DNA of 50,452 nucleotides from a virus. Location: positions 1 to 50,452 of the IMG/VR virus record IMGVR_UViG_3300035204_000867, one strand, 5' to 3'. Position numbers and translations under genes: made by a program. Within the stretch, counting starts at the first letter, position 1; each line of letters opens with the position of its first letter. Shown here one piece after another: positions 3,457-50,452 of this stretch. The notes beneath the pieces are model-generated. The model saw only the letters and a list, made by a program, of their open reading frames with translations. It was not told the origin of the DNA and searched no databases.

Positions 3457-5370
3457 ATGGCAGACCCTAAAAATCCAAGAAACAATGCCGCACCTCTTTA
3501 CAAGATGCTCACGAAGCTATTTTCTGGTCCCATAGTTAAATATGATTCCGAGCAACAAAATAAGTATCGAAGATGGCAATTAGATAAATACAGTACCAAA
3601 TTTACTTCTTTGTCGGGAAAACAATTTAAGAAATCATCTTATAATTTGTATGATAATTTTAGTGCAAAATATTATTCTGCACAAAATAGACTAGAACGTT
3701 ATATAGATTTTGATCAGATGGAGTATACTCCAGAAATTGCTTCGACGTTAGATATCTATGCTGATGAGATGACCACCTTTTCCGACTTGCAGCCTCTTCT
3801 CCACATTTTATGTCACAATGATGAAATTCGCTCTACTATTAACACACTACTCTATCAAATATTAAATGTGGAATATAACCTGTATGGCTGGGCACGGTCA
3901 ATGTGCAAATATGGTGATTATTATCTTTATCTTGACGTAGATGAAAAAATGGGGGTTCAATCAGTTCTCGCCCTCCCTACTAACGAGATCGAGCGCTTAG
4001 AGGGCGAAGACAAAACTAATCCCAATTATGTTCAGTTTCAGTGGAACTCTGCTGGGATGACGTTTGAAAACTGGCAAGTTGCTAACTTTCGTATTCTTGG
4101 CAATGATAAGTATGCTCCCTATGGAACATCTGTGTTGGAGCCTGCTCGACGCATTTGGCGACAACTCACTCTGTTAGAAGATGCCATGATGGCGTATCGT
4201 ATTGTTCGCTCACCGGAACGTCGCGTCTTTAAGATTGACGTTGGCAATATTGCCCCTGAAGATGTCGAGCAATATATGGAGAAAGTAAAAACTTCTCTCA
4301 AAAGGAATCAAGTAGTTGACCCAGACACCGGCAGGGTTGACCTTCGTTACAATCCGATGAGCATCGACGAGGATTATTATATTCCGGTTCGTGGTGGGCA
4401 GAGTTCTGAAATCACGAATCTCCCCGGTGGAGCATTCACCGGAGATATTGATGATGTAAATTATCTGAGAGATAAACTCTTTTCAGCGCTGAAGATCCCC
4501 CGTTCCTATTTGGCACGAGGTGAAGGCGCTGAAGAAGATAAAACTACGCTGGCTCAGAAGGATATTCGTTTTGCACGAACTATCCAAAGACTACAGCGTT
4601 CAGTTATTTCTGAGTTAGAAAAAATTTGTTTAGTGCATTTATATGTTCTCGGTTACCGAGGCGATGACCTTTTGTCTTTCAAATTGAAACTAAACAACCC
4701 GAGCAAGATTGCCGAGCTTCAAGAGTTGGAGCAATGGGAAAAGAAATTTAGTGTTGCTAGCGCAGCCACTGAGGGTTTTGTTTCGCGGCGATGGATTGCC
4801 AAACACCTCTTTAATATGAGCGATGAAGAATTCGTTCGCAATGAAGAAGAGATGTTCTATGATGCTAAATTCAATGCTTCGCTTGAAGCCGCTGGCACTG
4901 TCCCCGAAGCCGGTGGAGAAGGCGGCGGCTTAGACCTTGGTGATGAAGATCTTGACCTTGGGGACGAAGAAGAGTTGGACCTTGGAATGGAAGAAGAAGA
5001 GGGACCACTTTTGGTAGAGCCGGGAGAAGAAGAACTCACTGAGGCAGATGAAGACTCTATTCACTACACTTTTAAAGATGGTGCTACTACTACCAACAAA
5101 TCTAAAGGCAAAATTTATAAGCCCGTCAAGGTAGACAAACGTTCCGCTGGCGCAAAAAAGCGACATCGTAAAGCCGTGGCTAATCCACTTGGCAGTCAGC
5201 GAACCACGAAGCGTGCCACAGGATTGGAAGAACTGGATAAACTAGCAAAGGGTTTTACCGAGGGCAAAACTATTTATGGAGACATGGAGTCCAAAATTTT
5301 GAACTCCAGCAGGGAAATCGAAAAACTAATAGAAAGTTTGGAGAAGGTGAATGAAGCGAAAGCACAATAA
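3457..5370 (+). CDS. Portal protein (T4 gp20-like)
   Basis: A 637-aa protein, slightly longer than T4 gp20 (524 aa). Characteristic regions include YTPEIASTLDIYADEMTTFS near residue 100, the wing/stem section around SPERRVFKIDVGN, and LKIPRSYLARGEGAEEDKTT. About residues 490-530 form a strongly acidic DLGDEDLDLGDEEE tract, followed by a Lys-rich stretch and a helical tail. The portal forms the dodecameric vertex through which DNA enters, and nucleates head assembly. AAAGGA precedes the ATG. The last 20 bp overlap the next gene. The acidic tract is unusual and could be a protein-interaction or DNA-mimicking tail. Confidence 0.93.
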   Translation: MADPKNPRNNAAPLYKMLTKLFSGPIVKYDSEQQNKYRRWQLDKYSTKFTSLSGKQFKKSSYNLYDNFSAKYYSAQNRLERYIDFDQMEYTPEIASTLDIYADEMTTFSDLQPLLHILCHNDEIRSTINTLLYQILNVEYNLYGWARSMCKYGDYYLYLDVDEKMGVQSVLALPTNEIERLEGEDKTNPNYVQFQWNSAGMTFENWQVANFRILGNDKYAPYGTSVLEPARRIWRQLTLLEDAMMAYRIVRSPERRVFKIDVGNIAPEDVEQYMEKVKTSLKRNQVVDPDTGRVDLRYNPMSIDEDYYIPVRGGQSSEITNLPGGAFTGDIDDVNYLRDKLFSALKIPRSYLARGEGAEEDKTTLAQKDIRFARTIQRLQRSVISELEKICLVHLYVLGYRGDDLLSFKLKLNNPSKIAELQELEQWEKKFSVASAATEGFVSRRWIAKHLFNMSDEEFVRNEEEMFYDAKFNASLEAAGTVPEAGGEGGGLDLGDEDLDLGDEEELDLGMEEEEGPLLVEPGEEELTEADEDSIHYTFKDGATTTNKSKGKIYKPVKVDKRSAGAKKRHRKAVANPLGSQRTTKRATGLEELDKLAKGFTEGKTIYGDMESKILNSSREIEKLIESLEKVNEAKAQ

Positions 5371-6988: not shown

Positions 6989-7049
6989 CATTTACACTGA
7001 TAACCATTGGATGCTACGTCCCCCAACCAACTGCTGCAAGGGGTCGTGA
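6978..7049 (+). CDS. Possible 23-residue micro-ORF before the protease
   Basis: ATG at 6978 follows AGGGG with a 7-base spacer and opens a 23-codon frame (MNINIYTDNHWMLRPPTNCC...) ending in TGA at 7047-7049, two bases before the protease ATG. It overlaps the upstream gene by 11 bp. The well-placed ribosome binding site and stop-start spacing suggest either a real microprotein or a translational coupling device for the protease. There is no homology evidence. Confidence 0.35.
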   Translation: MNINIYTDNHWMLRPPTNCCKGS

Positions 7050-7051
7050 CT

Positions 7052-7633
7052 ATGGGTAAGAAACAAATATTAGTAGAATATTTTCAGCTTGAATCGCTGA
7101 CTGAAGCCAAACGTGCAGACGATGGCTTTGTTTATCTCAAGGGACTGTTACAGCACGCCAACAAAAAGAACGGCAATGGTAGAGTCTATCAAGAGAGGGC
7201 ACTTAAAAGAGAAGTGGAAAATTATAGAAAGATTGTTCGTGAACGACGAGCCTACGGGGAGCTTGATCATCCTGATAGTTCTGTTGTGGAACTGAAAAAC
7301 GCTTCTCATCTCATTACCGAAATTAATATGGAAGGTGAGGGAGTGTATGGAACATTAAAACTTTTGAATACCCCCGCTGGCAAAATCGCCCAGCAGATTG
7401 TGCTTGACGGCGGGTCAATGGGCATTTCATCCCGTGGATTGGGTTCAACTCGCCAACAGGGCGATATCACCCTTGTTGAAGATGATTTTCAACTCATTTG
7501 TTTCGACCTTGTTTCCGAAGCATCAACCCCCGGCGCATATCTTATTAAAGAAGGCAAAGAGCGCGACCTTTTCTGCAAGGCAGACCGTATTAATCGTGCG
7601 CTCAATGACATTCTTGTAGGAAGGAAGAAATGA
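7052..7633 (+). CDS. Prohead core protease (T4 gp21-like)
   Basis: A 193-aa serine protease that matures the prohead by cutting scaffold, capsid and internal proteins. A catalytic His is visible in GELDHP (H73) and the nucleophile Ser in GGSMGISSRGLGS (S126/S127), the herpesvirus-assemblin/gp21 arrangement; length is close to T4 gp21 (212 aa). A TTG at 7007 would extend the frame, but ATG 7052 has AAGGGG 9 bases upstream and is preferred. An LTE|A site at residues 16-19 (QLESLTEAKR) fits the gp21 cleavage rule and could be self-cleaved. The stop overlaps the next ATG (ATGA). Confidence 0.9.
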   Translation: MGKKQILVEYFQLESLTEAKRADDGFVYLKGLLQHANKKNGNGRVYQERALKREVENYRKIVRERRAYGELDHPDSSVVELKNASHLITEINMEGEGVYGTLKLLNTPAGKIAQQIVLDGGSMGISSRGLGSTRQQGDITLVEDDFQLICFDLVSEASTPGAYLIKEGKERDLFCKADRINRALNDILVGRKK

Positions 7634-8061
7634 AGCGAGAACAACTAAAAAAACTTATTAAGCCAATCATTAAAGAATGCATCCACGAAGTTATTATTGA
7701 AAGTGGTGTGCTTTCTAATATTGTAGCCGAAGTAGCCAAGGGCATGGGCAACGTAATTGTTGAAACAAAACAACCCGAAGTTCCTTCTGAGCCAGAGCGC
7801 AATGTAAATCAAGAAGCCATTGAAGTTCAGAAAAGACGGCTTGATGAACAGCGAAAAAAGCTAACTTCAGCCATTGGAAATAAAGCTTATGCTAACATTT
7901 TTGAGGGTGTAGAGCCGTTGACCCAACCTTCAGACAGTCCTACCTCACAAGCATCAGCGCTATCGGGTATGGCACCTAGTGACCCCGGCGTCGATATTTC
8001 TAACATCATGTCTCTGGGCGGTAAAAACTGGAAAGCACTGGCAACTAATAAAAAGAGGTAA
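7630..8061 (+). CDS. Hypothetical head-core-like protein with LIKPIIKE N-terminus
   Basis: A 143-aa protein beginning MKREQLKKLIKPIIKECIHE and containing VIIESG, an I-x-E|S site of the kind cut by gp21-type proteases. The N-terminal ~70 residues are predicted helical with a Lys/Arg/Gln-rich coil (EVQKRRLDEQRKKL). The C-terminal half is Ser/Pro-rich and probably disordered. It lies between the protease and the bS21 homologue in the head operon, starting in the ATGA overlap. A small scaffold or packaged core protein is the best guess; not firmly assignable. Confidence 0.55.
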   Translation: MKREQLKKLIKPIIKECIHEVIIESGVLSNIVAEVAKGMGNVIVETKQPEVPSEPERNVNQEAIEVQKRRLDEQRKKLTSAIGNKAYANIFEGVEPLTQPSDSPTSQASALSGMAPSDPGVDISNIMSLGGKNWKALATNKKR

Positions 8062-8330: not shown

Positions 8331-9389
8331 ATGTCGTCATTGTTCGAAAAAGCTATCGCTGATGCAAAAGAATTGAAAGAAACTGCTTTAAAAAGTGCAG
8401 AGCAACTGATCATTGAAAAATACTCTTCAGAACTTAAGGAAACTATTGAAAACCTTTTGGAAGAAGAAGAAGTGGAAGATGAGATTGTCGCTGATGAGGA
8501 AGCAGAAATTTCCAGTGATGTCATCGACGAACCAGCCCCCGCAGGCGACGTTGCCTTAATGAATCAGATTCCAGATGCGGCGACACAAGCTGTGGCACAA
8601 GCATTGGCAGATGACGAAGAAGAAATCGTTATTGACTTTGATGAACTAATGGCTGATTATGAGGCGACCACTCCTGATGAAATGGCAATGAATGTGCCTG
8701 AAGAAGCCGAAGCCGAAATCGATCGAGAAGAAATGATAGATGTTGAAGAAGAGGCTGATGAACTTGAAGCGATGATGGAAGAACTTACGGAAGAGCAACT
8801 TACCACGCTCTTAGAAGAAGTTGATATTGATATCAAATCTATCTATCCATCTAATGGCTGGGCAGGCTCCACCACCAGCGACAAAAAAGAAAATGTTGAA
8901 TTGGTCGCACTCGGTCAAGCGATTGAAGAAAAATTAGCTTCCGAGAAAGAAAAGAACGAAAAACTTACGGACGCCAATGTCCAATTAACTGAAAACTTGA
9001 AAAATACAAAAGAACAATTAGCCAAAGCCAAACTTGTGCTGATAGAGATGCAAAATAAGATTGGCGACGTTAATCTCCGTAATGCCAAGTTGTTTTACAC
9101 AACGAAGGTTTTGGAGACAAAAGAACTTAATACCCGACAAAAGAATAAAATTGTCGAGTCCTTAGCGAAAGCTAAAACAACTGAGGAAACAAAGCTGGTT
9201 TATGAAACTCTAAAAGAATCAGTGGGTAGCACCAACGAAACTGCACCAGAATCATTGGTTGAGGCAGTAAACAGAACACGTTCCCTCGTTCTTCGTCCTT
9301 CGAAGCGATTCGAAGCGAAAGATGAAGCTTCCCCGATGTATGATCATTGGAAGAAGCTTGCAGGAATAAATAAACCAAAGGGAGGTTAA
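8331..9389 (+). CDS. Prohead scaffold/core protein (T4 gp22-like)
   Basis: A 352-aa, highly acidic, coiled-coil protein that builds the internal core around which the capsid shell assembles. The N-terminus (FEKAIADAKELKETALKSAE) and C-terminal block (NAKLFYTTKVLETKELNTRQ, then EETKLVYETLKESVG) fit gp22-type scaffolds. A Glu/Asp-rich centre (~residues 45-170) separates two coiled regions; the second is near residues 200-250. It contains several L-x-E sites usable by the protease. It is longer than T4 gp22 (269 aa). AGGAG precedes the ATG. Its position between protease and capsid genes is the T4 one. Confidence 0.85.
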   Translation: MSSLFEKAIADAKELKETALKSAEQLIIEKYSSELKETIENLLEEEEVEDEIVADEEAEISSDVIDEPAPAGDVALMNQIPDAATQAVAQALADDEEEIVIDFDELMADYEATTPDEMAMNVPEEAEAEIDREEMIDVEEEADELEAMMEELTEEQLTTLLEEVDIDIKSIYPSNGWAGSTTSDKKENVELVALGQAIEEKLASEKEKNEKLTDANVQLTENLKNTKEQLAKAKLVLIEMQNKIGDVNLRNAKLFYTTKVLETKELNTRQKNKIVESLAKAKTTEETKLVYETLKESVGSTNETAPESLVEAVNRTRSLVLRPSKRFEAKDEASPMYDHWKKLAGINKPKGG

Positions 9390-9395
9390 AAAATT

Positions 9396-11126
9396 ATGTC
9401 TGCTTTAGAAAAATTAACTGAAGGCATTATTGCTCGCGACCTTGGTCAAGAAGGTGCTGCTCTCATTAACAAATGGGACAAAACTGGACTGCTGGAAGGT
9501 CTCGACTGTGATGTCACGAAAAACAACATGGCTCGGCTCTTAGAGAATCAAGCCAAGGAGCTTCTCCGAGAAGCTTCTAGTATGCAAGCTGGTGACGTGC
9601 AGGGCTTTTCGGCTGTTGCGTTTCCAATCGTTCGACGTGTGTTTGGTGAGTTGATCGCCAATGAACTCGTTTCCGTTCAGCCGATGAGCTTACCAAGTGG
9701 TCTGATCTTCTTCTTAGATTTTACTGCTAATATTAGCAAGCCCGGTTACGCTGCAAGCTCGTCGCTCTTCGGCGGCGCTGCTGTCGCTAACCAGCTTACT
9801 GGCGGTATGAACATCGATGGTTCGACCGGCAACTCCGAAGCTGGTCCGTATGCGCTTAACAACGGTTATGCGTCCCCGACCGGAACGTTTGATCCCGGTT
9901 CGGTGACTTCGATTGCTTCTGGCACTTACAACCGTGGCAATCAGGATTCGTCTGTCAATTTAAGTGCGGTCACCCCCGCAGCGTTCGACAGATTGCTTCA
10001 GTATGATATGGATATTGCTTCTGGTACGACCGTTGCCATCGCTTCGGTGGCGCGTGCTACGCTTGATGCATTCCAGATTGATATGAACAATCTGATTACC
10101 CTTGAGCCGGGTTCGGGTGCTGCTGGTGGCGGTTTCGGTGGACTTCAGCGTCGCCTTACGCGCATTGATCCTTCGGATAACACCAGAGTTCTTTTGGTGA
10201 ACGTTGCTACTGCTAGTGAAAGTGCTAACCAGCTTTCGGAAGAGCTTTCTTCGTTAGATGCAGCGGCTGGTATTAGTGTTGCTATCAAGGATAACTGGAC
10301 TTCAACCGGCGTTTCGATTGGTACAGTTGCTGGTACTACTGTCTGGGGCTTAGAAACCCTTAACAATATCCCCGAGATTGATATCAAGGTGGATAGTGTT
10401 GCTGTGACAGCTAACACCAAGAAGCTGAAGGCTAAGTGGTCGCCAGAGTTGGGTCAGGATTTGAACGCCTACCACAACTTGGACGCCGAGGTCGAGTTGA
10501 CGAGTATTCTGTCTGAGCAGATTGCTTTGGAAATCGATCAGGAAATCCTTGAAGATCTGATTCAGGGTGCCAATAAGTCGGGCGCTGTTCGTTACTGGAG
10601 CCGCAAGGCAGGTAAGTTTGTTAATCGTTCAACTGGTGTCGAGGTCGGTGTCGGTACGACTCCTGACTTCACTGGTACGGTTAGCGAATGGTATGAGACT
10701 CTGGTTGAAACCGTTAACGATGTTTCGGCACAGATTCATCGCAAGACCGTCCGTGGCGGCGCAAACTTTATCGTTTGCGGACCTGAAGTTGCGGGCATTC
10801 TTGAGTTCACGGCTGGCTTCCGTGCTAACGTTGCTGTTGACAGCAACAAAGGCACCGCTGGCGCGATGAACGTTGGTTCACTCAGCAAGAAGTGGGACAT
10901 TTATGTCGATCCTTACTTCCCAAGGAACGTTGTTCTCGTGGGTCGCAAGGGTAACAGCTTCTTAGAGAGCGGTTATGTGTATGCTCCTTACGTTCCGCTG
11001 CAAGTCACTCCGACCATCTTTGGTACGGAAGACTTCGTGCCGCGTAAGGGTGTCATGACCCGTTATGCCAAGCAGATGGTCCGACCGGACATGTACGGCT
11101 TGGTTATTATCGAAGATTTGGTCTAA
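9396..11126 (+). CDS. Major capsid protein (T4 gp23-like)
   Basis: A 576-aa capsid subunit. The N-terminal ~59 residues look like a cleavable propeptide ending LLRE|A (E59/A60), then FPIVRRVFGELIANELVSVQ, which matches the start of the gp23 HK97-like fold; the C-terminus YAKQMVRPDMYGLVIIEDLV is also typical. It starts 6 bp after the scaffold stop with GGGAGG upstream. Codons are noticeably richer in C/G at third positions than in neighbouring genes, as expected for the most highly expressed protein. A Gly/Ser-rich insertion around residues 125-190 may be a surface loop. The downstream hairpin terminates the transcript. Confidence 0.95.
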   Translation: MSALEKLTEGIIARDLGQEGAALINKWDKTGLLEGLDCDVTKNNMARLLENQAKELLREASSMQAGDVQGFSAVAFPIVRRVFGELIANELVSVQPMSLPSGLIFFLDFTANISKPGYAASSSLFGGAAVANQLTGGMNIDGSTGNSEAGPYALNNGYASPTGTFDPGSVTSIASGTYNRGNQDSSVNLSAVTPAAFDRLLQYDMDIASGTTVAIASVARATLDAFQIDMNNLITLEPGSGAAGGGFGGLQRRLTRIDPSDNTRVLLVNVATASESANQLSEELSSLDAAAGISVAIKDNWTSTGVSIGTVAGTTVWGLETLNNIPEIDIKVDSVAVTANTKKLKAKWSPELGQDLNAYHNLDAEVELTSILSEQIALEIDQEILEDLIQGANKSGAVRYWSRKAGKFVNRSTGVEVGVGTTPDFTGTVSEWYETLVETVNDVSAQIHRKTVRGGANFIVCGPEVAGILEFTAGFRANVAVDSNKGTAGAMNVGSLSKKWDIYVDPYFPRNVVLVGRKGNSFLESGYVYAPYVPLQVTPTIFGTEDFVPRKGVMTRYAKQMVRPDMYGLVIIEDLV

Positions 11127-45056: not shown

Positions 45057-45304
45057 GTAATTTAGCCAGAAAAATTCGTAGAAAGAAAGAGAAACAAATT
45101 AAAAAAGATGCCGAACAAAATATGAAAAGGCAGTTGGCTTTGTTTAAACATTTACCCGACGCATGTTCGGGGTGCGATCAGCCCTTTGATAAAACAAGTC
45201 GTGATCATCATATGACATGGAAAGTTAGAGTATATGAAGAAGCACAGCAGGTATATTTAGCCTGTCCTCACTGCCATGAACCACCGCGAGGTAACGATGC
45301 GTGA
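45053..45304 (+). CDS. Hypothetical basic protein with zinc-ribbon cysteines
   Basis: An 83-aa protein starting in an ATGA overlap with dnaE. The first 40 residues are a Lys/Arg-rich helix (MSNLARKIRRKKEKQIKKDA). The rest holds CSGCDQPF and CPHCHEP, a four-cysteine zinc ribbon. Small proteins of this plan occur beside replication genes in other marine T4-like phages. It could bind nucleic acid or the polymerase. The longer frame from 45005 lies in dnaE and is rejected. Confidence 0.65.
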   Translation: MSNLARKIRRKKEKQIKKDAEQNMKRQLALFKHLPDACSGCDQPFDKTSRDHHMTWKVRVYEEAQQVYLACPHCHEPPRGNDA

Positions 45305-46319
45305 AGCAATTACTTATGGTGACGTTCTTTTAGTACCTCAACACAGTACGATTGAAAGTCGCACTGAGGTGGACCTCACACAAAATTTAGACACAAACAT
45401 TGCGCTAGATATTCCTATTATCAGTAGCCCTATGGATACTGTTAGCGAGACCTCAATGGCTATCGCAATGGATTCGGCTGGCGGTGTTGGAATTTTACAT
45501 CGCTATAAAGAGATGATGAAAGAAGCGGAGATGGCTTTTCATTGTCACGAGGCTGGAGCTAAAAATATTGGTGCTGCAATCGGCGTTACAGGAGATTACC
45601 TAATCAGGGCTGAAGCTTTGGTTAACATTGGGAAAGTCAATATCCTGTGTTTAGATATAGCACACGGTCATCATATTTTGATGGAGCGAGCTTTAAAAAC
45701 TTTAAAAGATAAGTTTGGCGACACTGTTCATTTGATGGCAGGCAACGTAGCAACCTTGGAGGGTTTCAATGCATTGGCTGATTGGGGCGCTGATAGTATT
45801 AGATGTGGTATTGGAGGTGGCAGTATTTGCACTACAAGAATACAAACGGGACACGGTGTTTCGGGGCTTGAAACGATACTCCAATGCGCCCAATCAGACA
45901 GAGATGCAAAAATCATTGCAGATGGCGGTATTAAAAATTCGGGTGATATTGTTAAGGCTCTCGCTGCTGGGGCTGATTTTGTTATGTTGGGGTCGCTTCT
46001 AAGTGGCACAGATGAAACTCCCGGTGAAGTTATTACTTTTACTGATGGCAGTAAACGCAAGGCTTATCGCGGCATGGCGAGCCGAAAGGCTCAAGAAGCA
46101 TGGCGAGGAAAGTCAAGCGCACCAGAAGGCATAGCCACCACGGTCCATTATAAGGGTTCTGTGTCCAACATCTTGAATGATTTGGTTGGCGGCATAAAAA
46201 GCGGCTGTTCTTATTCGGGCGCAAGAGACTTGCACGAGCTTCGCACGACAGCCAAGTGGACTCGTCAAAGCGGTGCTTCGATGGCAGAGAGTTCAGCCCA
46301 CATTTTAGGGAGGAACTGA
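45297..46319 (+). CDS. IMP dehydrogenase / GMP reductase family enzyme, CBS-less
   Basis: A 340-aa purine enzyme with the IMPDH/GMPR barrel: GDVLLVPQHS start, IISSPMDTVS, LDIAHG (D120), catalytic loop GIGGGSICTTR with C178, ADGGIKNSGDIVKALAAGAD, and a late YKGSV...LVGGIKSG. The ~110-residue CBS module of most IMPDHs is absent. Length matches GMP reductase (GuaC, 347 aa), but SIC and APEGIA look more like IMPDH. The mobile flap between YRGM and YKG is shorter than in either and lacks the RY pair of IMPDH. It acts on guanine nucleotide pools either way. ATG 45297 has GAGGT upstream. Confidence 0.85.
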   Translation: MREAITYGDVLLVPQHSTIESRTEVDLTQNLDTNIALDIPIISSPMDTVSETSMAIAMDSAGGVGILHRYKEMMKEAEMAFHCHEAGAKNIGAAIGVTGDYLIRAEALVNIGKVNILCLDIAHGHHILMERALKTLKDKFGDTVHLMAGNVATLEGFNALADWGADSIRCGIGGGSICTTRIQTGHGVSGLETILQCAQSDRDAKIIADGGIKNSGDIVKALAAGADFVMLGSLLSGTDETPGEVITFTDGSKRKAYRGMASRKAQEAWRGKSSAPEGIATTVHYKGSVSNILNDLVGGIKSGCSYSGARDLHELRTTAKWTRQSGASMAESSAHILGRN

Positions 46320-46636
46320 TGCCCAGCATTGACAAAGAAACCCAAAGCCGTTTAGTTTTTCTTTTAGAAAAAGATTTGCATAACCAGTTCCGCGCTTCCT
46401 GCGCTGAAGATGGTCTGTCTCAAACCAAGTTTGTGGCAGGTATCATCAAGGCTTATGTCGAGAAAAACAAAAATATTATTAAGGTGGTAGAAAATATACG
46501 CGGGTCATCTAAGGTGGATGCCCAAAAAAGAATTAAAAACTTGGAAAACGAAACCATAAAAGATTTTTATGAATTTGATGACGACGAAATAGAAAATATT
46601 TTTGATAAAATCGAGGAGGCAAACCCAGACTTATGA
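46319..46636 (+). CDS. Ribbon-helix-helix-like regulator
   Basis: A 105-aa protein. Residues ~8-50 (QSRLVFLLEKDLHNQFRASC then AEDGLSQTKFVAGIIKAYVE) have the strand-helix-helix pattern of RHH/CopG-type DNA-binding proteins, with DLH..F and SQ-x-x-F-V positions typical of that fold. The C-terminal half is an acidic helix that could serve dimer contacts. It overlaps the upstream stop by one base (TGATG), with AGGGAGGA upstream. A phage transcription regulator is plausible. Confidence 0.65.
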   Translation: MPSIDKETQSRLVFLLEKDLHNQFRASCAEDGLSQTKFVAGIIKAYVEKNKNIIKVVENIRGSSKVDAQKRIKNLENETIKDFYEFDDDEIENIFDKIEEANPDL

Positions 46637-46857
46637 AAAAATGTATTGACAAAATCGGAGATCCGTGTCATAATAAAGAATGTCGCCAATGGATAGAATA
46701 TCCAGAAGACGACAACTGTGTTTTGGAAGCGGTAAGAAAGAACGGAAGAATGACCTTAAGAGAGTGCGCCAAGAGATTGGGTGTTTCTTATGTTAGGGTC
46801 AAACAGATTGAGGATAAAGCCCTCAAAAAACTTGAAAAAAAGCTGCTTTCTTCATAG
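46633..46857 (+). CDS. Mini sigma-factor-like protein (region 4 HTH)
   Basis: A 74-aa protein. Residues 40-69 (TLRECAKRLGVSYVRVKQIE then DKALKKLEKK) match sigma70 region 4.2, the -35-binding helix-turn-helix, and have the characteristic R-V-K-Q-I-E-D/A-K-A-L-x-K-L ending. The first 30 residues carry four cysteines (C4, C12, C17, C29) that may bind zinc. There is no region 2, so it cannot melt a promoter alone; it may redirect host RNA polymerase or act as an anti-sigma-like co-regulator. It starts in the 4-bp ATGA overlap. Confidence 0.75.
   Translation: MKKCIDKIGDPCHNKECRQWIEYPEDDNCVLEAVRKNGRMTLRECAKRLGVSYVRVKQIEDKALKKLEKKLLSS
46646..46674 (+). promoter_or_regulatory. Possible sigma70-type promoter inside mini-sigma gene
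   Basis: TTGACA at 46646-46651, 17-bp spacer, CATAAT at 46669-46674. It lies at the start of the mini-sigma coding region and could drive the small gene at 46885. Because it is embedded in coding sequence it may be accidental. Confidence 0.35.
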
Positions 46858-47058: not shown

Positions 47059-47067
47059 ACTATTTAT
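47059..47067 (+). promoter_or_regulatory. Candidate late motif ACTATTTAT (before acidic head protein)
   Basis: AAACTATTTATTTT, 39 bp upstream of ATG 47098, nearly the same spacing as at the scaffold, sheath and 35738 genes. It suggests a return to late expression after the accessory block. Confidence 0.5.
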
Positions 47068-47097: not shown

Positions 47098-47820
47098 ATG
47101 AAAAGGAACATGAAAGTATTACTTGAATCGTGGCGAGGCTACATCAAGGAAGATGAGGAAGAGTTAGAACTTTCAGCCGCTGACGAAGAGGCTGGAGCAG
47201 AAGACGCTATGGACGACGCTGCTGACCATATGGAAGACGCCGTGGACGATATGGAAGATGCGATGCACGACAAGGTGGAAGCCTTGGTCGATGCTATTGC
47301 CGCTGCCATTGAAGACGAGACCGGCGTTGCGGTTGAGGTCGAAGGCGAAGCCGAAGACGCGACCGACGAGATGGAAGACATGGGCGATACCGAAGAGGAA
47401 GCCGAAGATACGGTCGAAGACTTGGAAGAGATGGGCAGTAAGAAGGGCGAATACAAACGTCGCGATAAGTCTGCTGAACATCCCGAAGGTCATCGAGCCG
47501 GTGATGTCGAAGGTCACTACAAGGCTTACATGGAAGAGGGCGAGAAGGCTGGTGATAAGTCCAAGACCCACAAGGGTGAAGAAGACTACACCGCTAAGAA
47601 AGAAAAGCCCGGTGAAGATAAGCGCGAGGACGCTGAGAAGGACGGTGCCGAAGCCACTAAGAAGAAGACCAGTGGCAAGGGACGCGGTGAGAAGAAAGGT
47701 GATGATGCCTATGTCAACGAAGCCCTTGAAGAGATTGTCAGCGAGGTCACTGACCGCGTTGCAAAGCGACTTGTGAAGGAAAACCTTAAGCGCAAGTTAG
47801 CCAAGCGACTCGCTCAGTAG
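47098..47820 (+). CDS. Low-complexity acidic protein, possible head-internal protein
   Basis: A 240-aa protein beginning MKRNMKVLLESWRGYIKEDE. Residues ~17-110 are extremely acidic and Ala/Met/Asp-rich (DDAADHMEDAVDDMEDAM), residues ~112-200 are highly charged Lys/Glu (KKGEYKRRDKSAEHPEGH), and the end is a basic helix. The LLE|S at residues 8-11 fits the L-x-E rule of gp21-type proteases. AGGAG precedes the ATG and the late motif lies upstream; the codons are C/G-rich as in capsid and SSB genes, so it is probably abundant. A packaged DNA-condensing or scaffold-like protein is my best guess. Confidence 0.55.
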   Translation: MKRNMKVLLESWRGYIKEDEEELELSAADEEAGAEDAMDDAADHMEDAVDDMEDAMHDKVEALVDAIAAAIEDETGVAVEVEGEAEDATDEMEDMGDTEEEAEDTVEDLEEMGSKKGEYKRRDKSAEHPEGHRAGDVEGHYKAYMEEGEKAGDKSKTHKGEEDYTAKKEKPGEDKREDAEKDGAEATKKKTSGKGRGEKKGDDAYVNEALEEIVSEVTDRVAKRLVKENLKRKLAKRLAQ

Positions 47821-47822
47821 GA

Positions 47823-48455
47823 ATGAACGAAATATTTACTCTCAAACGGAAGAGTTTAGAGAGTCACATCAAAGAAGAGTTTCCTGAATACGAAATACTA
47901 GACAAGAAAAACTCTACTCTTATGAAGTGGCTCTCTAAGCTTTTATTTTTCAACAAAGACTTTATGTCCCGTTACATTACAGTAATCGGACCTAAAGTTT
48001 ATGTTCCTCAAGTTCCGTGGAACAAAAACAAGCCCCTCTCTGCTTGCACCGTCTTGGCTCACGAGTGGGTTCATATGAAAGACGGCAAAAAGTTTGGACC
48101 TCTGTTTAAATTTTTATATTTATGCCCCCAAATTTTAGCACCACTGGCATTGTTGGGATTTTTCAACTCTGCTTTCTTTTGGTTCGCTTTATGTTTATTA
48201 CCGATCCCCGCACCATTCCGTGCGTGGTTTGAGTTCCGAGCCTATGTGGTGAGCATCGCAGTTCGTTGGTGGCTAGCCAAAGCCTCTACCAACGCTGATT
48301 GGTTGGCTGGGCAATATACCACAGGTGCATATTATTGGATGTTTCCATTCAAGTCTTTTTTGATAAAACAATTTGCAAAAGAGTTTGAGCGCATCAAGCG
48401 CGATGATTTAAAAGATTACGAGCAAGAAATAAAAAAAGCACTCAAAGTTGTTTAG
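47823..48455 (+). CDS. Membrane protein with HEXXH zinc-protease motif
   Basis: A 210-aa protein. HEWVH at 80-84 is a canonical zinc-metallopeptidase motif, with E137 in WFEFRAY as a possible third ligand, the spacing and 'E-x-R-A-Y' context resembling gluzincin proteases. Two hydrophobic stretches (~95-112 and ~114-130) suggest a hairpin in the membrane between them. It starts just after the acidic protein gene. The substrate is unknown; a membrane protease could affect host envelope proteins or superinfection. Alternatively it is a degenerate metallopeptidase. Confidence 0.6.
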   Translation: MNEIFTLKRKSLESHIKEEFPEYEILDKKNSTLMKWLSKLLFFNKDFMSRYITVIGPKVYVPQVPWNKNKPLSACTVLAHEWVHMKDGKKFGPLFKFLYLCPQILAPLALLGFFNSAFFWFALCLLPIPAPFRAWFEFRAYVVSIAVRWWLAKASTNADWLAGQYTTGAYYWMFPFKSFLIKQFAKEFERIKRDDLKDYEQEIKKALKVV

Positions 48456-48734
48456 ATGAATAAGAAAACCCTGATGAAGTTTCTTCGTACCACGAAGGCT
48501 GTTGCCGAAGTGGATAACATTGTATATGCAGAAAAAGCATTTGTTATCAATCAGGTGATGCGCTTTCTTGGTGAAAAAAAACTTCCCGAGGATCAGTTTC
48601 TAAAAGTTTTAGCGCTGGTCAATAAATATGTTAATGACGAAATAACACTCTTTTTTCAAGATGATAATATCATCGTGGAGTTCATAGATGAAGAAGAAGA
48701 AATCGCTAATGACGTTTTGGCAAATTCCCTTTGA
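48456..48734 (+). CDS. Hypothetical small acidic protein
   Basis: A 92-aa protein (MNKKTLMKFLRTTKAVAEVD...), starting at the base after the upstream stop. It has helical segments (FVINQVMRFLGEKKLPEDQF) and a very acidic tail (FIDEEEEIANDVL). It overlaps the next gene by 47 bp. Unknown function; possibly a two-gene unit with its downstream neighbour. Confidence 0.5.
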   Translation: MNKKTLMKFLRTTKAVAEVDNIVYAEKAFVINQVMRFLGEKKLPEDQFLKVLALVNKYVNDEITLFFQDDNIIVEFIDEEEEIANDVLANSL

Positions 48735-48972
48735 GGGAGATGAATTGGAATTTCGCTTGCAAGCGGACAGGCTGACACCTCAAGCGAAAAGGAAAGTCAA
48801 ACAATTATTAAAAGATTGGGAAATTGTAGCCGAAGGATATTGTAAAAGATATGAACTTCTTGTCTTTTCTAAACTGTTCAGCGACCGAGACACAGCCCGA
48901 GAATTTGTAGAGAACTTTCCCGAAGACCTAATTGTAAAAGGCTATAACGGAAAAGAGATTACTCATTTCTAG
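48688..48972 (+). CDS. Hypothetical small protein
   Basis: A 94-aa protein. ATG 48688 is favoured because GGAG lies 7 bases upstream; ATG 48709 is an alternative with a weaker site. It reads MKKKKSLMTFWQIPFEGDEL, then a helix (ADRLTPQAKRKVKQLLKDWE) and a strand-helix end (YELLVFSKLFSDRDTAREFV). The overlap with the previous gene is 47 bp. No family recognised. Confidence 0.5.
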   Translation: MKKKKSLMTFWQIPFEGDELEFRLQADRLTPQAKRKVKQLLKDWEIVAEGYCKRYELLVFSKLFSDRDTAREFVENFPEDLIVKGYNGKEITHF

Positions 48973-48973
48973 A

Positions 48974-48982
48974 ACTATTTAT
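48974..48982 (+). promoter_or_regulatory. Candidate late motif ACTATTTAT (before IP-like gene)
   Basis: GAACTATTTATCGC lies only 12 bp before ATG 48986. If it is a -10-type promoter the mRNA would be nearly leaderless, and no ribosome binding site is seen at the ATG. This copy has the most unusual spacing. Confidence 0.4.
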
Positions 48983-48985
48983 CGC

Positions 48986-49441
48986 ATGGAATATAGCACT
49001 TTACATTTACGCTTTCAAGAATTTCTTGCAGAAGCGGAAATAAAGTATGATGAGTTTACTGGCGACAGATACATTATAGACCTTGACAACCTTTCTGTTG
49101 TTGCGAGTAAGCACGCCGAAGAGCGCTCCCGCCGACATGTCGGTCAGCGTGGACGTGGGGGCGCAAGAGCCGGTAAGATTAGTCGGGACAGTGTGAAACG
49201 AGCATTAGACCGCGCACTCCCCGAGATTTTGGACGACTTTGCCAACGGCGAATTAGATAATAAAGAAGCATTTCACGTCAAAGCCGAACAGGGAAATCAA
49301 CCGGCTCTAAATGTTATTGGTAAACTTGATATGCGTAAAGGTCCAGACAAAATGGTACTAATTACTATGATGCGTAAGGATGACTTTCGCACCGACGCTT
49401 TTGGCGGGGGTGACCAAAAGACCTATGAGGTGAGCATATGA
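48986..49441 (+). CDS. Candidate head-internal protein with T4 IP-like targeting sequence
   Basis: A 151-aa protein. The N-terminus LRFQEFLAEAEIKYDEF closely recalls the capsid-targeting sequence of T4 internal proteins (MKTYQEFIAEA), including an L14-A15-E16|A17 site for gp21-type cleavage. The rest has a basic stretch (RSRRHVGQRGRGGARAGK) and a mixed alpha/beta C-terminal domain. T4 internal proteins are packaged in the head, trimmed by the protease and injected to counter host defences. The late motif lies 12 bp upstream. The function of the mature ~135-aa protein is unknown. Confidence 0.6.
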   Translation: MEYSTLHLRFQEFLAEAEIKYDEFTGDRYIIDLDNLSVVASKHAEERSRRHVGQRGRGGARAGKISRDSVKRALDRALPEILDDFANGELDNKEAFHVKAEQGNQPALNVIGKLDMRKGPDKMVLITMMRKDDFRTDAFGGGDQKTYEVSI

Positions 49442-50452
49442 GACCGCGACAATTAATTATTGAAAGTTTATTAAAAGAAGCCAGCGAAGAAGAAAAGCTG
49501 GCTGCGGATCTTTTAGACGGTGTTTTTGATGAAATCGCATCAGATATCAAGGCTAATAAAGATGCCCTTATTCCCCAGCAACAAAATGAAGCTGTTGGTC
49601 TAGCCATCCTCGGCGGTGTAGTAGCTGGTCCAGCCATTATGAAAATAATTGGTAAAGGGGTCAAACTGGGGCAAAATGCGCTACGAAAGAGGAAAGGCGA
49701 AGAGCCGATTGATTCCAACGCCATTATCGAGATGGCTGAAAAGCTTCACCACATGTTTATCGGTGGCATAGAAAAGGCTCTCTTTTTTATAAAAGATAAA
49801 GATAAGAAGCACAGGCTGGCTGTGATTATTTTTCACGCAGTTGTCGCTGGTTTATTGGTTGCCTCTGGCAAAGGATTTTTTAAGGCTCTCGCAAAGCACC
49901 AAGACTTAACGGCGTTTATTGAAGCAATGCTTTCAGCAATTAAGACGGGTGAGTTGGGCGTTTTCGCTGTAGAAACTTTTGGCTCTTTGTCTGCTGCCCT
50001 CGGAACCGCTACAGAACTTACTGATGCCATTGAGTTGGCAGACATGGAAGGAATAATGGAAATGTCGTCAATGGCTGGCGGCTCAGTTGCAGGATACAGT
50101 TTACCACTTGGCGCAAAGCCAAAAAAAGATTTAGAGGAAAATCAAATGAACAAATTAAAATTAACCAAAGGGCGTTTGCGTGAAATTATCGCAGAAGAAG
50201 TTGCTCGTCATAAAAAGGTTGCCGAAGGTATGTATGACGGCACTGATGATGCGGAGATTGAAGGCGCAGAGGCTAAGGAATTAGCCGCACAGGAACCCGC
50301 CCGTGCGGAAGATCCGTTCTATGAGCATCGCGATGAAGAAGAATGGGAAGAGCATGATGTCGGCGCAGCCGAAGATGATTGGTCGCAGATCCACAAGCTT
50401 GAGAAGGATGCCCATTGGGATAGAGAAGAGCGCGAAAGACTGCGCGAGAAAG
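49438..50452 (+). CDS. Candidate head-internal/structural protein (3' truncated by window end)
   Basis: The frame starts at ATG 49438 in a 4-bp overlap (ATATGA) with the previous gene and is still open at the last base after 338 codons. The N-terminus MRPRQLIIESLLKEASEEEK has IIE|S and LKE|A sites as in the other candidate cargo proteins. Two hydrophobic segments follow (AVGLAILGGVVAGPAIMKII near residues 52-72; LAVIIFHAVVAGLLVASG near 128-145). From 50146 the protein reads MNKLKLTKGRLREIIAEEVA, itself like a protein start, with AGAGGA 7 bases upstream, then a very acidic tail. It may be one long protein or have an internal start. Confidence 0.6.
   Translation, partial: MRPRQLIIESLLKEASEEEKLAADLLDGVFDEIASDIKANKDALIPQQQNEAVGLAILGGVVAGPAIMKIIGKGVKLGQNALRKRKGEEPIDSNAIIEMAEKLHHMFIGGIEKALFFIKDKDKKHRLAVIIFHAVVAGLLVASGKGFFKALAKHQDLTAFIEAMLSAIKTGELGVFAVETFGSLSAALGTATELTDAIELADMEGIMEMSSMAGGSVAGYSLPLGAKPKKDLEENQMNKLKLTKGRLREIIAEEVARHKKVAEGMYDGTDDAEIEGAEAKELAAQEPARAEDPFYEHRDEEEWEEHDVGAAEDDWSQIHKLEKDAHWDREERERLREK

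Follow-up and report, generated by a model that had tools for sequence, protein, structure and literature searches.

N-terminal tags as candidate head-loading signals in an uncultured phage with a T4-type head block

Described head-targeting signals and the locus under study

That a short signal can bring diverse proteins into a T4-type head is known, and the idea has already been proposed for T4-like phages (PMC9026906). According to this review of T4 head assembly, the first ten residues of T4 internal protein III (IPIII) suffice for targeting, positions 4 and 7 mattering for targeting and positions 8 and 10 for processing, and the protease gp21 cuts after L/I-x-E (PMC9026906). IP1, IP2 and IP3 enter the host by injection and block type IV restriction enzymes, a different one in each case (PMC12373910). 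Here we analyze a locus of six plus-strand genes in a fragment of 50,452 bases from an uncultured phage in IMG/VR (IMGVR_UViG_3300035204_000867), hereafter the window, in which the products starting at 47098, 48986 and 49438 carry the N-termini described below. We consider it probable that N-terminal tags bring the 47098 and 49438 products, a shorter product nested in the 49438 frame with its start at 50146 and, less certainly, the 48986 product into the prohead, where a gp21-type protease then releases them. The support for head-targeted cargo is strong but purely computational; core binding, cleavage, packaging and injection of the window proteins we infer by analogy with the described systems.

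T4 IPII and IPIII both start with MKTYQEFIAE/A (a slash marks a cut throughout), in which the mapped residues are Y4, F7, I8 and E10. The end of the first tag family described here, W-x-x-F-L-x-E in class 1 (consensus MKLxxENWKxFLxE), is spaced identically. Like T4 IPI-III, these proteins combine a short N-terminal helix, the arrangement aromatic-x-x-F-[LI]-x-E, a gp21-type protease in the phage and unrelated bodies behind one signal. The class 1 tag differs in its extra MKLxxEN start, in Trp replacing Tyr and in the far larger number of body families behind it, recognizable enzymes included; the mature parts are unrelated, and packaging is predicted. T4 Alt, an ADP-ribosyltransferase that is packaged, injected and cut near its N-terminus (ITE-6), resembles some predicted cargo of the sister-phage arrays: this is likewise of ADP-ribosyltransferase type and has an N-terminal L/I-x-E site, but it belongs to another family (ART-PolyVal), bears another tag and has no counterpart in the window. 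Similarly, many inner-head and ejection proteins of phiKZ and SPN3US are cut after Glu by a gp21-related protease, although most of their propeptides are longer than 100 residues and phiKZ has S/A-x-E as its motif, whereas the segments here span 14-18 residues and end in L/I-x-E.

The N-termini on which an initial annotation of this DNA had drawn are present in the window where it placed them: MKRNMKVLLESWRGYIKEDEE for the 47098 product, MEYSTLHLRFQEFLAEAEIK for 48986 and MRPRQLIIESLLKEASEEE for 49438. An aromatic residue at -7, F at -4, L/I at -3 and E at -1, in a propeptide of 10-19 residues, are found in the 47098 product (W12, Y15, I16, E18) and the 48986 product (F10, F13, L14, E16), and the aromatic pair of this T4-type capsid targeting sequence is missing from the 49438 start and from the second tag family, class 2. 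When applied to the T4 head and internal-protein regions, the same motif scan flags the N-termini of IPII and IPIII, the gp23 cut FGSFLTE/A and few others. Across the whole window proteome, [FWY]xx[FY][LIV]xE occurs near the start of 47098 and 48986 and in one internal case (Poisson P about 0.004).

Two tag families and their reuse on unrelated bodies

The strongest case is the 47098 product, and not the 48986 product that had been taken as the lead. Its class 1 tag (MKRNMKVLLESWRGYIKE, 47098-47151, plus strand) has the top profile score, an N-terminus conserved in relatives and a predicted cut after E18. With a class 1 profile made from 72 tags found in other phages, the window's own clade excluded, and scored over 15,758 window positions, residues 6-18 (KVLLESWRGYIKE) are the window's best match (27.7 bits against 5.2 for the next), and the best other six-frame position reaches 8.0 bits. 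The cut had previously been placed after LLE (E10); this LLE is the tag's LLEN/LLES element, and I16-K17-E18/D19 is the likelier site. Among orthologues the N-terminus MKVLLESWRGY is kept, one of them reading MKVLLESWGNY, and the middle of the protein differs in length and sequence.

Class 1 tags recur on unrelated bodies. The whole length of two long relatives was examined. In sister contig G004 (also L059), some eight to ten adjacent genes about 25 kb downstream of the matching region start approximately with MKxLLENWKxFLNE and continue into unrelated bodies, and a motif-free, all-against-all comparison of N-termini in this contig finds 33 similar pairs against 0.35 expected from internal segments. 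As a DNA pattern, class 1 matches 98 IMG/VR stretches and has no match in 257 Gb of GTDB bacterial and archaeal genomes; a control pattern with the same codon classes reordered has none in IMG/VR. Since the size of IMG/VR is estimated, from two control words, at about 14-16 Gb, database size does not explain this contrast. Around the class 1 matches, 163 tagged genes lead into 78 unrelated body families, and two or more class 1 genes stand on 34 of the 89 locus strands, with up to six in succession.

Since the pattern itself required a terminal Glu, a retest in which selection was made on the first half of the tag only (xxENW) and pattern matches were excluded covered 70 further genes. Counting from the W, position +3 is F/Y in 83%, +4 is L/V/I in 86% and +6 is E in 74% of them, and several of the exceptions keep L/I-x-E one residue later. 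The second half of the tag is therefore retained without selection, which indicates that the protease-type site belongs to class 1.

The class 2 pattern, MKxTKxxL[KR]xIIxEE, is found in at least 120 IMG/VR stretches against 8 in GTDB, all of the latter metagenome-assembled contigs; among the matches listed, 210 genes place it on 184 body families. Homologous acetyltransferase-like bodies stand behind class 1 in several contigs (e.g. L120:12001-12735) and behind class 2 in L183 (gene at 3590, reverse strand), which makes it look as if the two tags were alternative labels serving the same purpose. No cultured phage bearing either tag was found, and a search of the open-access literature found the tag strings in no paper, subscription journals and preprints lying outside its scope. 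What is new here is the pair of tag families and the scale on which they occur, together with the enzyme cargo and the nested start. Separately, four GTDB loci (L284, L286, L287 and L288, in genomes labelled Methylococcaceae TMED69 and Halobacteriovorax) hold many class 2 tags in assemblies that also contain a gp21-type protease; they are probably phage contigs that were binned together with bacterial ones.

Both classes are present in the window as single copies. The class 2 tag (MNKLKLTKGRLREIIAE, 50146-50196, plus strand) begins at an internal ATG within the 49438 frame; it reads LTKGRLREIIAE in the 49438 product, with KLTKGRLREIIAEE at frame residues 241-254. On a profile likewise derived from other phages it scores 31.0 bits, against 1.4 for the next window position. 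A GAGG ribosome-binding site (50134-50137, plus strand) lies 8 nucleotides ahead of this ATG, and the arrangement is retained in all five 49438 orthologues despite differing codons and residues. Because the start signal is kept while the encoded residues differ, the sequences argue for a second, shorter product made from position 50146; a similar internal start is annotated in T4 gene 21. The 49438 product also has a conserved start of its own (MRPRQLIIESLLKE, 49438-49479, plus strand), kept in the five orthologues as MRxRxLIIExLLKEA barring conservative changes, with a predicted cut before the invariant A15. The earlier emphasis on the L/I-x-E of this start holds for the invariant LLKE/A, but the second tag class with its internal start had been overlooked.

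The window encodes a head block of T4 type, with terminase, portal, gp21-type protease and gp23-type capsid protein identified by strong PHROG family matches. The protease gene lies at 7007-7633 on the plus strand (phrog_207, E 3.6e-46). Among records of at least 100 kb, a gp21-type protease accompanies class 1 in 9 of 10 and class 2 in 10 of 11 (19 of 21 together); random records have it in 4 of 8 cases at 100 kb or more and in 4 of 28 at 37 kb or more. A class 2 gene directly precedes the protease gene in L122, where two class 1 genes follow, and in L124; in L125 and L126 it comes after. Such adjacency is suggestive only, as tagged genes are numerous anyway.

Cargo, scaffold or chance resemblance

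Several observations weaken the case for head loading or limit what the window alone can show. The motif-free comparison of N-termini yields no pairs within the window alone, so the significance rests mainly on relatives. The protease association is real but modest against the controls (P 0.03 at 100 kb or more and 0.004 at 37 kb or more), and we did not retain co-occurrence as proof, given the frequency of the protease in large random records. Cut-site motifs are short and common, for which reason L/I-x-E alone was rejected as evidence, and several 47098 orthologues have the L-x-E moved downstream (VLTE/G). T4 targeting depends on an aromatic pair, which class 2 does not have, and class 2 may therefore dock to another partner. 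With a class 1 score of -12.2 bits, the 48986 product does not fit that profile.

A real possibility, though one to which we give less than even weight, is that the tagged window proteins are structural: they would belong to the prohead core or scaffold, be assembled and then digested inside the head, and not be injected as effectors. The mature part of the 47098 product (47152-47820, plus strand) is acidic in the orthologue alignment, with variable length and a conserved middle helix and C-terminus. The protein keeps its ends, has an acidic, low-complexity middle of variable length and is acidic like T4 gp67; it may act more as an acidic core component than as an effector. The 49438 product is helical, and in Microcystis phage Mel-JY01 the capsid gene is immediately followed by one for a relative of its N-domain. 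On the other side, class 1 tags are carried in sister and other phages by enzymes, which fit cargo better than scaffold. Among the bodies of the G004 array are a NUDIX-zeta kinase fusion, an ADP-ribosyltransferase (PF18760, E 4e-12) and an S-adenosylmethionine (SAM)-lyase-like protein (PF23780, E 1.3e-9); another body weakly matches an acetyltransferase. In L078, by comparison, the tag MKKWKQFLKE is joined directly to the kinase with no NUDIX domain, which shows that the tag persists while the domains behind it come and go. Tagged bodies elsewhere are of HD, NUDIX and metallopeptidase-like types. Analogy with T4 Alt and the internal proteins makes these tagged bodies candidates for counter-defence or host takeover; those plausible as counter-defence cargo, of SAM-lyase-like and ADP-ribosyltransferase type, lie in arrays of sister phages and none inside the window, where Pfam and PHROG searches gave no significant match for any of the six genes. 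The description of the region as a set of cargo proteins agrees with the conserved tags, their reuse on unrelated bodies and the gp21-type protease, but it does not extend to the genes at 47823, 48456 and 48688, which are untagged.

It is unlikely, in our estimation, that the only real tags are those of 47098 and the 50146 module and that the similarities at 48986 and at the start of 49438 arose by chance. Such a reading would be in keeping with the failed 48986 profile score, with the window's want of N-terminal pairs and with the 49438 start itself (LIIESLLKE/A), which scores weakly for class 1 (2.8 bits, rank 3) and is a good match to neither profile. However, among the first 16 residues of 48986, the eight orthologues vary except at M1, Y3, R9, F10, F13, L14 and E16, so that F-x-x-F-L-x-E is invariant while neighboring positions change, and LIIExLLKEA is invariant in the five orthologues of 49438. 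The putative 48986 tag (MEYSTLHLRFQEFLAE, 48986-49033, plus strand) has the T4 spacing and a predicted cut after E16. Its proposed likeness to a T4 targeting signal is upheld by these invariant residues (F10, F13, L14 and E16 in all eight) and weakened by the profile score; the Ala after the cut was rejected as a mark of T4 homology, being specific to the window, with E or D in orthologues.

Least probable, and in our judgment distinctly so, is that the tags address a membrane, a replication compartment or a host complex, with the terminal L-x-E a by-product of an amphipathic acidic helix: the class 1 helix is indeed strongly amphipathic and the packaging evidence is all by analogy, but the aromatic residue, F, L and E are spaced just as in the mapped T4 determinants, L-x-E persists when it is not selected for and tagged genes adjoin the head protease gene.

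As for the bodies, relatives of the 48986 product are encoded at eight loci (72-85% identity, identical gene order). A profile search found none beyond these eight, cultured phages yielded none either, and no relative at E up to 1 was found among 50,697 phage records, T4 included. This is in line with the expectation that the mature parts would be unlike those of T4 internal proteins, as is the absence of significant PHROG or Pfam matches for 47098 and 49438. The conserved mature domain of 48986 (49034-49441, plus strand) is modeled by AlphaFold2 as a helix and four strands at a mean predicted local distance difference test score (pLDDT) of 63, with no convincing fold match: Foldseek and VIA-align results are weak, and there is no PDB match at E up to 0.001. 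One Tenacibaculum phage PTm1 model resembles it at a template modeling (TM) score of about 0.5. A toxin reading, based on the best VIA-align Z values of 6.0 (CdiA-CT toxin chain) and 5.6 (YeeU-type protein), was set aside, such values being ordinary for a model of this quality. The 49438 model (pLDDT 38) was unusable.

Late-type motifs, head genes and the proposed scheme

Late-promoter-like motifs, also pointed out previously, do precede two of the tagged genes. The sequence ACTATTTA occurs at 47059-47066 (plus strand), 38 nucleotides before the 47098 ATG, and at 48974-48981 (plus strand), 11 nucleotides before the 48986 ATG; place and distance are the same in G004 and G005. In the window it is found 13 times on the plus strand and never on the minus strand, often 26-40 nucleotides ahead of late genes; it also precedes the scaffold and sheath genes, and further sites lie at, for example, 8294, 13766 and 18305. 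The short distance to the 48986 ATG, with no clear ribosome site and conserved in relatives, suggests a leaderless late message.

Some neighboring genes merit mention. The 74-residue protein encoded at 46633-46857 consists of little beyond sigma-70 region 4 (Pfam E 7.5e-9), and the 92-residue protein at 48456-48734 weakly matches (E 0.015) the late promoter regulator family phrog_254; the two are possibly the phage's late transcription pair. An IMP dehydrogenase/GMP reductase-type gene occupies 45276-46319 (Pfam E 3.8e-103). The untagged product of 47823-48455 contains hydrophobic stretches and the sequence HEWVH, a metallopeptidase-like motif (HExxH), with no Pfam or PHROG match. In two relatives, a frame that by eye is GroEL-like follows the 49438 orthologue and a protein of 328-554 residues (L007:13352-14923 and L009:12598-14172).

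In the head block, the gene after the protease (7630-8061, plus strand; N-terminus MKREQLKKLIKPIIKECIHE) encodes a probable prohead core protein, judged by its position and by equivalents in other phages; its N-terminus is weakly class 2-like (rank 7, only -7.5 bits), which we treat as a hint. A probable scaffold protein, in the gp22 position between protease and capsid, is encoded at 8331-9389 (plus strand), and its residues 25-37 rank second in the window for class 1, with a weak score of 5.2 bits. The major capsid protein (9396-11126, plus strand; phrog_138, E 2.3e-70) has a predicted propeptide end ARLLENQAKELLRE/A60 that is near-invariant across tag-bearing phages. As a source of class 1, the capsid propeptide end (LLENQAKELLRE/A) is similar, but its spacing is one residue longer, and the idea was left as a hint.

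In the scheme that we propose, the 47098, 49438, nested 50146 and probably 48986 products would be expressed late, and their short N-terminal helices would act like the T4 capsid targeting sequence, with an aromatic face binding the core. The gp21-type protease would then cut after the terminal Glu and leave the mature protein free inside the head, from which the freed proteins may be injected.

The injected proteins of large phages are mostly unknown because they have no recognizable body in common, and the ten-residue signal of T4 solved their recognition for three proteins, all now known as blockers of restriction enzymes. On balance, we lean toward the view that uncultured, largely marine T4-superfamily phages label hundreds of accessory families with interchangeable head-loading codes, of which there would be at least two (MKLxxENWKxFLxE and MKITKxQLKQIIKEE), and this would make their injected arsenal readable from sequence; the window would hold both, one of them on a nested product with an internal start. 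If this is true, the tags mark hundreds of predicted injected families, including ADP-ribosyltransferases, SAM-lyase-like proteins, NUDIX-kinase fusions, HD proteins, acetyltransferases and many unknowns, and would provide a direct means of searching for new proteins of counter-defence and host takeover as well as a route to load chosen proteins into phage heads.

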